A stretch of 63,345 bases of DNA from the NCBI GenBank assembly GCA_017473435.1, contig JAFULG010000004.1:1-63345 (forward strand), read 5' to 3'. Source of the DNA: Clostridia bacterium. GTDB taxonomy: Bacteria > Bacillota > Clostridia > Oscillospirales > Acutalibacteraceae. The notes beneath the pieces were generated by a model that searched no databases, had not been told where the DNA came from, and saw nothing but the letters and a program-made list of their open reading frames with translations. Shown piece by piece: positions 8,070 to 42,404 of the stretch. Each line of letters begins with the position of its first letter. Within the stretch, counting starts at the first letter, position 1. The position numbers and the translations under genes were made by a program.

Positions 8070-8453
8070 ATGTCAACACTCAAATCCAGTAAGCAACGGG
8101 ATGCGGTGCTGGCAAACTTGCAGTCACGGTACGATCATCCCACAGCAGAGGATATTTTCCTCGCAGTGAGAGAAGTAATTCCGTCAATAAGCCTTGCAAC
8201 GGTATACAGGAACTTAAAGCTCCTTGAAAGCGAAGGGCTTATACTTAAGATTCCTACCGGTGAAAGCGACCGATTTGACGGACACACTCAGGGACACTAC
8301 CACCTTACCTGCATAAACTGCAGAGGTGTTATTGATCTGGATATCGACCCCGGCGTTACACTCAACGCTCTCCCCCGTGACTTTGACGGTACTGTAACAT
8401 CTCACTCATTGATGTTCTACGGCATCTGCCCCGATTGCAAAAAAACAAATTAA
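8070..8453 (+). CDS. perR: Peroxide-responsive Fur-family repressor PerR
   Basis: 127 residues, somewhat short for the family. The N-terminal winged helix (about 1-62) has the recognition segment SLATVYRNLKLL. The regulatory metal site matches PerR: His23, Asp70 (in RFD), His76, His78 and Asp89 (in VIDL). The structural zinc site is Cys81, Cys84, Cys120 and Cys123. Asp at position 89, where Fur usually has Glu, favours PerR, in which Fe-catalysed His oxidation releases DNA. GGAGC precedes the ATG. The gene has a consensus promoter and a Fur/Per box directly upstream and is followed at 26 bases by reverse rubrerythrin, the classic PerR target in Clostridia. Confidence 0.9.
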   Translation: MSTLKSSKQRDAVLANLQSRYDHPTAEDIFLAVREVIPSISLATVYRNLKLLESEGLILKIPTGESDRFDGHTQGHYHLTCINCRGVIDLDIDPGVTLNALPRDFDGTVTSHSLMFYGICPDCKKTN

Positions 8454-8479
8454 AAAATTAAAACTTGGAGGAAACAAAC

Positions 8480-9019
8480 ATGAAAAAGTATTATTGCCCC
8501 GTATGCGGTTATGAAAGTGACGAAAAGATCGATGTATGCCCCATCTGTAAAGCAAAAATGAAGGAAAGAGAAGAAGGCGCAGGCATGACCTGGGCAGCAG
8601 AACACATCCTCGGTGTTGGCAAAGAATCAAATGTTCCCGAAGAAATCATCATGGGTCTTCGCGACAACTTCAACGGTGAATGCTCAGAGGTTGGTATGTA
8701 CCTTGCAATGGCAAGAGTTGCTCACAGAGAAGGCTATCCTGAAATCGGTCTTTACTGGGAAAAGGCAGCTTACGAAGAAGCAGAGCATGCAGCAAAGTTC
8801 GCAGAGCTTCTCGGCGAGGTTGTAACTGACAGCACAAAGAAAAACCTCGAGATGAGAGTTGCCGCTGAAAACGGCGCAACACAGGGCAAGTTTGACCTTG
8901 CAAAAATGGCTAAGGAGCACGGCCTTGACGCTATCCACGACACCGTTCACGAGATGGCACGTGACGAAGCAAGACACGGTAAGGCATTCGAAGGTCTTCT
9001 TAAGAGATATTTCGGTTAA
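8480..9019 (+). CDS. rbr: Reverse rubrerythrin (NADH-dependent peroxidase component)
   Basis: 179 residues. An N-terminal rubredoxin-like Fe(Cys)4 domain has Cys6, Cys9, Cys20 and Cys23. The ferritin-like four-helix di-iron domain (about 55-179) follows, with Glu67, the EEAEH segment (His103), Glu130 and DEARH (Glu163, His166). Rubredoxin first and ferritin-like second is the reverse order described for clostridial rubrerythrins that reduce H2O2 and O2 using electrons from NAD(P)H through rubredoxin. The start is ATG 8480, set by GGAGG at 8467-8471; a TTG at 8465 is part of that site. Cytoplasmic, co-transcribed with perR. Confidence 0.92.
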
Positions 9020-9032
9020 TCAAAACAAACAA

Positions 9033-9055
9033 GGAGCGGCAAAAAAAGCCGCTCC
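9033..9055 (+). other. Stable stem-loop after rubrerythrin, without a T tract
   Basis: The perfect 8-base stem GGAGCGGC with GCCGCTCC has a 7-A loop. It is followed by CTACCCC rather than T residues, so it is a poor intrinsic terminator. It may protect the perR-rbr mRNA end or only partly stop transcription. Confidence 0.55.
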
Positions 9056-9078
9056 CTACCCCACAAATTCAAACAGTA

Positions 9079-9109
9079 TTGATTAAACTCTGATAAAACA
9101 GACTATAAT
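9079..9109 (+). promoter_or_regulatory. Possible promoter for dfx-rubredoxin
   Basis: TTGATT (9079-9084) and TATAAT (9104-9109) with a 19-base spacer. The -10 is perfect but the spacing is long, so it is a weaker or activated promoter. No second Per box is evident between rubrerythrin and dfx. Confidence 0.4.
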
Positions 9110-9130
9110 ATTTACCTGGAGGTTATTGTT

Positions 9131-9511
9131 ATGAAAGAGACAAAATTCTTTATCTGCGAGCATTGCGGAAACCTTGTAGAGGTTGTTAACGATGCTAAAG
9201 TTCCTATGATTTGCTGCGGACAGAAAATGACTCAGCTTATTCCCGGCACGGTTGAAGCAAGTGTCGAAAAGCACATTCCCGTTGTTACAGTCGACGGCGA
9301 CAAGGTAAGAGTTGAAATAGGCTCTGTTGCTCATCCTATGGCTGAAGAACACAGTATTCTCTGGGTATACCTTCAGACAGACAAGGGCGGTCAGAGGAAG
9401 AACCTCGCTGTAGGCGAAGCACCTGCCGCAGAGTTTGCGCTCCTCGGCGAAAAACCCGAAGCAGTTTACGCTTACTGCAATCTCCACGGCCTTTGGAAGA
9501 CTGAAATCTGA
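9131..9511 (+). CDS. dfx: Desulfoferrodoxin (superoxide reductase)
   Basis: 126 residues with two iron sites. The N-terminal desulforedoxin-like centre uses Cys9, Cys12, Cys28 and Cys29. The catalytic Fe(His)4Cys site of superoxide reductase uses His48, His68, His74, Cys116 and His119, the positions known for the Desulfovibrio enzyme, and the catalytic Glu46-Lys47 pair precedes His48. It reduces superoxide to H2O2 in the cytoplasm with electrons from rubredoxin. GGAGG lies upstream of the ATG. It is followed 21 bases later by rubredoxin, so the donor and the enzyme are co-encoded, and rubrerythrin upstream removes the peroxide. Confidence 0.95.
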   Translation: MKETKFFICEHCGNLVEVVNDAKVPMICCGQKMTQLIPGTVEASVEKHIPVVTVDGDKVRVEIGSVAHPMAEEHSILWVYLQTDKGGQRKNLAVGEAPAAEFALLGEKPEAVYAYCNLHGLWKTEI

Positions 9512-39912: not shown

Positions 39913-41538
39913 TTATTTAACAGCCGCAACAATGCTTTCAAAGGCACTTGTGATAACAGAACCGGCTTTGACGGAAGCGGCATTGATTTCTTCGTTTTCG
40001 GTAAACATTGAACGGATATCGTTATCGGTAAGAATATAGCCGATCTGGTCATTGTTAAGACCGAAGCAGATAAGCTTTTCAACGCCTGCCGTATCCTTCA
40101 TAGGAGCGTAGTCCCAAGAGGTCTTTGTCCAGCTTGCATCCTTTGAAACTGCACCGCCCCAAAGAATTTCGGGAGCAATTTCACCGGGGATCATTGCAAT
40201 ACCGACCTTGTTGCCAAGCTCCATATAGCCTACCTCTGTAATAACGGTAAAGTCGCCGCCGTTCTTAGTGACAACGGAGTCAACAATGCCTTCTCTTACT
40301 GCAAGAATATGTACCGGATTATCAGCAGTAAGAGCAACCTCGGTAAGTCTGATGTTAAGCACCGGAGCAAGCTTTTCTTCTTCATCAATGGCTATTGCTC
40401 TTTTTGCAAGCTCAATGCCGTAGCCCTTTACTCTTGCGTTTTTGCCTGAACCTACGTTTTTGATTGTGTCACGGTCATCACCGATTGCAAGCTCTGCGCC
40501 CTGAACATAAACAACATCCGCGCCTGTTGTTTCTTTTACATATTCCTTGAAATAGTAAGGGAAGTCAGATGAAATAGCTGTACTGTCACCGCTGTAGCCT
40601 GTACAATGGATACCTGCCTCACAAAGCCAGATTTCATCAGATGCCTCGTTATAGGGGTCAAAACGGAAACGGTGAATTTCGCCGTCAAATACATCAGGCT
40701 TACGCTTATCATGCATAAGGTCGCTTGCATCAGCGCTGCCGTAGTAGAGAGAACCCTCTTCCATATCATTGACAGCTTCAATAATACTGCTTGTTACCAC
40801 CTCATAGAGATTATTCATAAACTTATCTGTCTTACCGCTTGTAAGCTCACTTTTATCTATTCCTACGGCATTCATGCCGGGATTAAGCATAAGTGCAGGG
40901 ATAAGAGCAACGCCCATTCCGAGGGTATCGATAAGCGAATGCTGATGGAGAGTTGAGATGTTGATGCTGATAATTCCCTTTTCAGCGGCGAAGGAAGCAA
41001 GCTTCTCTCTGATTTTAAGCACATCGCCTCTTGCAAGTCCGTAGCCGTCAACAACAGCCTGAACAACAATACCGCTCACACCATCGGAAATCGCATAAAC
41101 ATTTACACCCTGATCGTCAAGAACCTCTGTAGGCTTATGACCTGAGAAGGTCTGAAGTGAGCCTGCCATATTATATTCTCCGCTGAGAATATCAAGTCCT
41201 TCAAGAAGAGAGCCGTAAGCATAGCCTGCGCTCCAGACTGAACCGGACTGCACTTCGGTTTCAAACTTATCCTCGCCCTTATAGAAAGAATCGGGACTTT
41301 GATAATCGTCGTAGTTCTGCCAGGTCTTACCCCAATCGAGTCCCGGGATAACCTTATTGAGCACCTTTCCTACAACCATCACAAACTTGTCAAGAAGCAT
41401 ATACATAGTTGCTTCAAACTTCTGCATAGGACCCTCTGAGGGATCAACCTTTGAAGCTGCAGAAGCAGGTACAACAACAGTAAGCGCAACAAGCACAAAG
41501 GTAAGCATCAGCGCAATAATTTTTTTTGCCGTTTTCAT
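39913..41538 (-). CDS. Secreted neutral ceramidase-like protein
   Basis: 541 residues with a clear signal peptide (IIALMLTFVLVALTVVVPASA). The middle resembles neutral/alkaline non-lysosomal ceramidases: an HQHS segment (198-201) at the place of the zinc motif HTHS, and HCTGYSGDSTAISSDFPYYF (311-330) in place of the nucleophile region with its Ser-Ser-Asp, then VVYVQGAELAIGD. Ceramidases release fatty acid from ceramide. The match is by motif and partial. AGGAG precedes the ATG. It is first of a two-gene unit with the beta-propeller protein; both are exported. Confidence 0.65.
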   Translation of the reverse strand: MKTAKKIIALMLTFVLVALTVVVPASAASKVDPSEGPMQKFEATMYMLLDKFVMVVGKVLNKVIPGLDWGKTWQNYDDYQSPDSFYKGEDKFETEVQSGSVWSAGYAYGSLLEGLDILSGEYNMAGSLQTFSGHKPTEVLDDQGVNVYAISDGVSGIVVQAVVDGYGLARGDVLKIREKLASFAAEKGIISINISTLHQHSLIDTLGMGVALIPALMLNPGMNAVGIDKSELTSGKTDKFMNNLYEVVTSSIIEAVNDMEEGSLYYGSADASDLMHDKRKPDVFDGEIHRFRFDPYNEASDEIWLCEAGIHCTGYSGDSTAISSDFPYYFKEYVKETTGADVVYVQGAELAIGDDRDTIKNVGSGKNARVKGYGIELAKRAIAIDEEEKLAPVLNIRLTEVALTADNPVHILAVREGIVDSVVTKNGGDFTVITEVGYMELGNKVGIAMIPGEIAPEILWGGAVSKDASWTKTSWDYAPMKDTAGVEKLICFGLNNDQIGYILTDNDIRSMFTENEEINAASVKAGSVITSAFESIVAAVK

Positions 41539-41717: not shown

Positions 41718-42302
41718 TTAAACTCTTGTTCTCATTAATCCGTGTCTGTTGCAGTAAATATAAAGATATCCTCTTCCTCTGAAATGTATCCTTGTTTCAG
41801 CGTTTCCCTCAGGGTAAAGCTTTACAAAATTCACCTTATCCGTTGTCACGTAAGCTATAAAGGAAATGAAATGATTTTTACTCATCTCATGATTAACAGT
41901 TATAAACTTCTCATCCTCTACATTTTCAATGCTTATTGTATGCTCAGCATCCGGCTCCTCAGCTTCAAGAGGAGGCAGGCTGATCCCGTGACAGCTTATC
42001 ACCGCCTCCCCCGTTGAACAGATTATATTTCCGCAGACGGGACAGGCATAAAACTTTGAAAAAAGTATGTTTGAGGAATAATTTCTGTTGACAACCGTCT
42101 CACCGGACATAAGCTCCATCACGGAAACACCGAGAGCCCGGCTCAACGGCTCGATAAGAGATATATCCGGCAGTCCCTTTGCCGTTTCCCATTTAGAAAC
42201 CGCCTTAGCTGTTACACCTATATTCTCGGCAAGCTGTAACTGGGTAAAGCCTCTCTTTTCGCGCAATTTCTTTATGACTGAGCCTGTTATATATGTATTC
42301 AT
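41718..42302 (-). CDS. XRE-type regulator fused to a superoxide-reductase-like iron domain
   Basis: 194 residues. The N-terminal helix-turn-helix (about 6-65) reads IKKLREKRGFTQLQLAENIG. The C-terminal part (about 85-194) aligns with desulfoferrodoxin encoded at 9131. The five Fe(His)4Cys ligands correspond: His121, His138, His144, Cys184 and His187 (in NHEMSKNH and YCNRHGL). The catalytic Lys before the first His is Glu120 here, and the desulforedoxin Cys set is incomplete (Cys87, Cys90, Cys104). It therefore probably senses superoxide, oxygen or iron rather than reducing superoxide fast. AAAGGAG precedes the ATG. A strong promoter lies at 42333-42361. Confidence 0.88.
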   Translation of the reverse strand: MNTYITGSVIKKLREKRGFTQLQLAENIGVTAKAVSKWETAKGLPDISLIEPLSRALGVSVMELMSGETVVNRNYSSNILFSKFYACPVCGNIICSTGEAVISCHGISLPPLEAEEPDAEHTISIENVEDEKFITVNHEMSKNHFISFIAYVTTDKVNFVKLYPEGNAETRIHFRGRGYLYIYCNRHGLMRTRV

Positions 42303-42332
42303 AATTCCTTCTCCTTTTATCGGTATGACAGC

Positions 42333-42361
42333 ATTATAACAGTTAATTCTTATGATCTCAA
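42333..42361 (-). promoter_or_regulatory. Sigma-A promoter for the XRE/superoxide-reductase-like gene
   Basis: On minus: TTGAGA (42361-42356), a 17-base spacer and TATAAT (42338-42333). Confidence 0.75.
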
Positions 42362-42404
42362 CCTACGCTCAGTAGATTAAGCGCAAAGCATAACACAACA
42401 CAAA

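Follow-up and report, generated by a model that had tools for sequence, protein, structure and literature searches.

The 194-residue protein encoded on the minus strand at 41718..42302 (coding sequence including stop codon) of the window, the whole 63,345-nucleotide stretch of Clostridia bacterium DNA that was analysed, joins an XRE helix-turn-helix to a desulfoferrodoxin-like domain in a single open reading frame, and a palindrome upstream of its gene is conserved among its relatives with a fixed promoter geometry. We put the chances at about even that it is an autogenously regulated redox or metal protein that binds its own promoter and whose output is mostly itself, and we prefer such a metal- or redox-tuned switch with itself as its main target to a sensor that governs a superoxide regulon.

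The DNA-binding part, an HTH_3 (XRE) domain, spans residues 10-64 (42111..42275; features of this gene are all on the minus strand), and its nearest solved folds are P22 c2, DdrO and SinR. It is followed in the same chain by a desulforedoxin-like (Dx) half, residues 83-110 (41973..42056), which was recognized through a dfx_rbo match and in which alignment with desulfoferrodoxin places C87, C90, C104 and H105, and then by a superoxide reductase (SOR)-like iron domain, residues 113-194 (41721..41966), which has the fold of SOR centre II and contains H121, H138, H144, C184 and H187 as well as E120. The original prediction of a regulator fused to a SOR-like domain was therefore correct; its description of the C-terminal half was borne out as far as the iron domain goes, but the desulforedoxin half with Cys87, Cys90, Cys104 and His105 had been overlooked. 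At a Pfam threshold of 0.01, HTH_3 is found in 32 of the 32 members of group A1 and Desulfoferrodox in 30, Desulfoferrod_N is matched in just two of the 32, and in the sister clade (below) Desulfoferrodox is found in only 6 of 15 members. With its HTH_3 domain and conserved promoter site the protein has the make-up of an XRE one-component regulator, its DNA binding being predicted.

This architecture is already known, though the original prediction had placed similar ones only vaguely: SORGOdb (Lucchetti-Miganeh 2011, PMC3116461), in the available part of its text, lists an 'HTH-Dx-SOR' class of 19 proteins that likewise have an N-terminal HTH ahead of a desulforedoxin-SOR module. By its rule mutated CX2CX15CC sites are classed as 'atypical', and the Cys3His small site of the window's protein would fall there; four Cys are present in 131 of 138 relatives, but their spacing is shorter than the CX2CX15CC of SORGOdb. 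The available text of PMC3116461 does not describe an operator, self-control or Lys loss for HTH-Dx-SOR proteins, and a search of the open-access literature, with subscription papers outside its scope, found no functional, regulatory or sensor study of them. What is new here is the ligand conservation across 138 relatives, the clade-dependent His121 and the promoter palindrome with its fixed geometry. The protein differs from XRE/HTH_3 autoregulators such as P22 c2 and SinR in having a C-terminal metal domain and, at the stringency used, only itself as a target. The fold search also lists HppE (1zz8 and others; E about 2e-4, TM 0.31), in which an HTH_3 likewise precedes an iron-binding beta domain. 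HppE is, however, a cupin and not of the SOR fold, the match lies in the HTH part, and it is the HTH-SOR-like gene that has a conserved promoter site. To our knowledge HppE has no regulatory role. Two further candidates were rejected: TrtA of Treponema denticola as a relative, as the available text of PMC12724145 gives it 104 residues and a non-HTH part that resembles no known protein, and a Palaeococcus paper as a precedent, as XRE and desulfoferrodoxin are mentioned separately in the available part of PMC6981617.

Among 34 genomes from the window's genus (its own genome counted) 26 have a near full-length copy, as do 2 of 25 from the same family or order, and one of these copies (in G009) has an in-frame stop. 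In a phylum sample of 398 genomes 33 matched at 1e-20, and 27 were counted as having a near full-length protein. A homologue scan of genome contigs gave at least 80 loci, and one named carrier among the best 80 listed is a spirochaete, Treponema ruminis (L063). The best segments of 15 viral relatives stop at residue 104 or earlier, none reaching the SOR part, so no phage carriage was seen among them, and a plasmid collection gave two matches (34.6 and 44.3% identity), one in a 2.6-Mb record and the other in a 55-kb Monoglobus record. A tree of 138 proteins, built by a quick method, splits into clade A (111 rows, including the window's protein) and sister clade B (27 rows), which are separated by a branch with SH-aLRT 100. 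Copies of the metal domain without an HTH were found in genomes G452 (L138:1468-1896, a 143-aa frame) and G381 (L236:1970-2380). Read by eye, the L236 copy retains the complete set of four Cys and five SOR ligands, and in the L138 copy position 105 is His and His187 has become Asp; the genome with L236 also carries a full-length HTH fusion and an ordinary desulfoferrodoxin (Dfx). The existence of these copies suggests that the metal domain has a role beyond moving an HTH.

The five Fe(His)4Cys ligands H121, H138, H144, C184 and H187 all align with those of solved superoxide reductases, in keeping with the original prediction, which had matched them to the desulfoferrodoxin at 9131, though BLASTP against desulfoferrodoxin places His121 one residue off. 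Conservation was counted in a pool of 138 non-redundant proteins, from which L097 and shorter copies were excluded and in which two 175-aa copies ending at a contig edge were included. Cys87, Cys90, Cys104, His138, His144 and Cys184 are invariant (138/138). At position 105 there are 131 Cys and 7 His, a pattern that takes five changes on the tree, and the small site of the window's protein accordingly reads C87-x2-C90-x13-C104-H105, which is not the Fe(Cys)4 CX2CX15CC site of 2Fe SOR centre I. His187 is retained in 130 of 138 (otherwise six Asp, one Gln and one Gly; six changes on the tree) and in 104 of the 111 clade A proteins. His121 is retained in 121 of 138, that is in 111/111 of clade A and 10/27 of clade B, with two changes on the tree, both in clade B. 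Free loss of ligands among orthologues, which the original prediction had named as a point that would count against it, is thus seen in part, at His121 in the sister clade and in the six changes at His187, but His121 is fixed in the window's own clade. In the clade B proteins concerned (L110, L127-L133, L135, L136, L194-L198, L200, L201) Glu, Pro, Asn, Asp or Lys stands at position 121 and the other ligands stay, except His187 in L132; a different metal geometry in these proteins is possible. Within residues 82-194 the ligands make up 6 of the 10 invariant columns (hypergeometric p 6e-6, which is not a strict probability because the rows are related), the other four being Gly106, Met140, Tyr163 and Gly188. 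Judged from these alignments, the metal site is under strong selection, yet it is neither a textbook SOR site nor uniform across the branches.

The departures from the textbook site are as follows. The 2Fe SOR motif, (E)(K)H(x)19-27H(x)5H(x)40-63C(x)2H in the available text of PMC11980386, shares the His4Cys five-ligand set of centre II with our protein, which lacks the Glu-Lys and has spacings of 16, 5, 39 and 2. Compared with desulfoferrodoxin (1dfx, 2ji1, 1vzg) the protein has the added HTH and tighter ligand spacings, and Tyr163 (138/138), Lys142 (133 Lys and 5 Arg) and Glu165 (135/138) are peculiar to the HTH-fused family. The position of the catalytic Lys is occupied by Glu120 (Ala119-Glu120-His121), as had been predicted, and the loss is family-wide, with a Lys before the first His in only one of the 138 relatives. 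The proposal that this loss makes turnover slow was weakened by the SOR of Ignicoccus hospitalis. That enzyme is efficient with a Thr at this position, so the absence of the Lys is no proof of slow turnover. The Thr is deduced from the title T24K of a solved mutant (4brj; another is titled E23A); we found no usable paper on a Lys-less SOR, and the available text of PMC2614490, on the Ignicoccus genome, is silent about the residue at the Lys position.

The gene's promoter region contains a putative operator, the conserved 17-mer CTACTGAGCGTAGGTTG (42359..42375), with the palindrome CTAC-N5-GTAG at 42363-42375; the TTG that ends the 17-mer belongs to a -35 element TTGAGA (42356..42361), which lies 17 bp from a -10 element TATAAT (42333..42338), and a ribosome-binding site AAAGGAG (42311..42317) precedes the ATG start codon at 42302. 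Among 101 upstream regions, which include that of the broken copy L097, the ribosome-binding site reads AAAGGAGA in 29. The consensus palindrome is CYACG-N3-CGTRG, 13 bp long and one base ahead of the -35 TTG. Its exact dyad CTACG-N3-CGTAG is present upstream of 24 of 101 close homologues, and in five shuffles the commonest dyad of equal size reached 2-3. A weight matrix finds CYACGNNNCGTRGGTTG in 101/101 above the 95% shuffle level and in 79/101 above every shuffle, a lenient control in that the matrix was trained on the same 101 sequences that it scores. The conserved operator upstream of orthologues for which the original prediction had called is therefore present. Of 28 loci outside the training set 20 exceed the 95% level, one of them (L140) a fragment close to the threshold, and eight lie below it (L118, L131, L134-L137, L138, which has no HTH, and L139, which is truncated); L131 and L134-L137 form a sub-branch of the sister clade. 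The survey covered the loci other than L194-L205. In 99 loci the palindrome is followed by a single base, nearly always G, and then TTG, and in 94 of these 99 (L109 and L110 omitted, ties scored as 17) the spacer between the TTGNNN hexamer and the best -10 measures 17 bp.

If transcription starts 7 bases past the -10, the palindrome is centered at about -43. The lambda cI protein at PRM is an activator that touches sigma from a comparable position. By analogy the operator's position would suit a sigma-contacting activator, and an autorepressor could use it as well. Conservation of the operator suggests that the DNA-binding half of the fusion is in use, and we infer that the fusion protein itself binds the site at 42359-42375. 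The HTH-less copies, one with all its ligands, weaken the original prediction, since they suggest that the iron domain has a separate job too.

Are there other targets? The operator core together with a spaced -10 pattern occurs at 32 sites in 59 genomes, versus four for the reversed pattern. Twenty-five sites are at the HTH-SOR-like gene (25 of the 28 carriers have one, the misses being G027, G030 and G037), five at other XRE genes and two at neither, one of these preceding a frame no longer than 67 aa and the other falling within a frame of 149 codons, 243 bp ahead of a different ORF; none of the 32 is at a recognisable start of a non-XRE gene. The strict operator gave 16 sites in the same genomes, 14 at the gene and two (L179, L186) with no 100-aa ORF within 260 bp. 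The bare palindrome CTACG-N3-CGTAG gave seven, six at the gene and one (L190) 112 bp ahead of an open frame, and so is nearly confined to the gene's promoter, the reversed pattern occurring hundreds of times in the 59 genomes. That scarcity reflects either rare words or avoidance; the far commoner reversed control shows that the palindrome is generally a rare word, and its rarity is by itself no proof. No further conserved site was found at the stringency used, and degenerate target sites elsewhere are possible.

In the window there is no second operator site with fewer than three mismatches, and none with up to three at the Fur-family, rubrerythrin and desulfoferrodoxin genes at 8070-9511. 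With up to two mismatches the whole genome has 30 operator sites, versus 19 for the reversed control, and four pass a filter for a -10 score of at least 4.5 and an ORF of at least 100 aa within 60 bp, cut-offs that were chosen after the list had been seen. All four are at XRE genes, namely the HTH-SOR-like gene and three paralogues (L142, L143 and L167, at G000 C65:9324, C68:7279 and C56:96203), whose sites have 1, 1 and 2 mismatches and whose different C-termini are hydrophobic by eye. A looser core gave three matches in this genome, the gene's own site and two more, versus seven for the reversed control. The paralogues look like a lineage of self-regulated HTH proteins with swapped C-terminal domains. 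Because they share the operator type, self-control belongs to the HTH lineage as a whole and is silent on sensing; it seems to have been inherited with the HTH, the iron domain being the part that differs.

No conserved partner gene was found: after removal of 14 loci at which the ORF caller chose another frame, no neighbor cluster is shared by more than 10 of the 67 loci, and none sits at a fixed position in more than five. Downstream, the same strand carries a gene within 60 bp in 2 of 66 loci and at any distance in 33 of 66, so co-transcription is possible in the latter. The window also encodes, at 39913-41538 (minus strand), a protein of 541 aa whose N-terminus looks signal-like by eye and which matches nothing in Pfam at 0.001.

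The same genome encodes an ordinary desulfoferrodoxin at 9131..9511 (plus strand), which lies outside the unit and served only as a yardstick. It is the last of three genes in a row at 8070-9511, after those for a Fur-family regulator and a rubrerythrin whose N-terminal part is rubredoxin-like, and this ordinary SOR is probably under PerR-type control. When an ordinary Dfx is defined as a PF01880 match below 1e-15, 13 of the 26 same-genus carriers have one and in 13 none was detected (these are drafts of varying completeness, five of the latter being at least 94% complete). In the phylum sample, likewise of drafts of varying completeness, it was found in 16 of 27 carriers and went undetected in 11, and about half of the non-carriers (roughly 182 of 371, weak matches counted) have it. 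Many carriers show no Dfx, and the HTH-SOR-like protein is therefore not simply its regulator.

We propose that the XRE domain is dimerized through the desulforedoxin-SOR part and that the dimer would bind the 13-bp palindrome CYACG-N3-CGTRG, whose center lies some 43 bp ahead of the point where transcription of the gene begins. The His4Cys iron domain, probably holding Fe, and the Cys-rich domain, holding Fe or Zn, would shift state upon oxidation, ligand binding or a change in metal supply, and this change would alter DNA binding in one direction or the other, so that the protein sets its own level. As no other conserved target was found, what the switch puts out is most likely its own protein, as a self-dosing redox protein or scavenger, and not a stress regulon. 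A tentative, more specific possibility is a one-component regulator in which the SOR His4Cys iron site senses superoxide, O2 or NO and which has its own promoter as sole target; losing the Lys would have tuned the site to bind these species, or be oxidized by them, without fast turnover. Such a single-gene unit, found in gut Clostridia and a spirochaete, would be detector, switch and redox buffer in one.

The original prediction was of a dedicated superoxide, O2 or NO sensor, and it is rather doubtful that such a sensor controls oxidative-stress genes in trans. Its conserved metal ligands, lost catalytic Lys and conserved promoter site would fit, but 30 of the 32 operator-promoter sites in 59 genomes are at its own or other XRE genes and 0 of 32 at a recognisable non-XRE start, the window has no other site below three mismatches nor one with three at the 8070-9511 genes, and no ordinary Dfx was seen in 13/26 same-genus and 11/27 phylum carriers. 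This last point would instead suit an active superoxide reductase, or a scavenger of another kind, that uses its HTH for autoregulation only and not for redox sensing, as half of the same-genus carriers have no other detected SOR; the HTH-less copies with a wholly or largely intact metal site and the existence of a natural SOR that has Thr where the Lys would be (4brj title T24K) point the same way. We nevertheless think such an enzyme unlikely, as the Glu-Lys pair ahead of the first His is not conserved (Lys 1/138), His121 is missing in 17 of 27 sister-clade proteins, and the ligand spacings of 16 and 39 fall outside the 19-27 and 40-63 in the available text of PMC11980386.

Metal could also have a purely structural or metal-homeostasis role, the Cys/His sites holding Zn and only folding and dimerizing the regulator. 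Structural Zn sites tolerate a Cys to His change. The fourth Cys is His in 7 of 138, and the three small-site Cys and three large-site ligands are invariant alongside only Gly106, Met140, Tyr163 and Gly188. Against this, clade A keeps His121, His138, His144 and Cys184 in 111/111 and His187 in 104/111, more than structural Zn needs, and we regard this role as improbable.

If the autogenous switch does sense through its iron site, a sensor with the SOR fold would add a new type to the non-haem iron switches; SoxR senses superoxide with a [2Fe-2S] cluster. With just one conserved site, in the gene's own promoter, the idea lends itself to a direct test. The fusion family is common in the window's genus (26/34) and occurs in numerous other gut Clostridia; in a good share of the carriers no ordinary superoxide reductase was detected, and in gut Clostridia the fusion protein may tune its own amount to oxidative stress.
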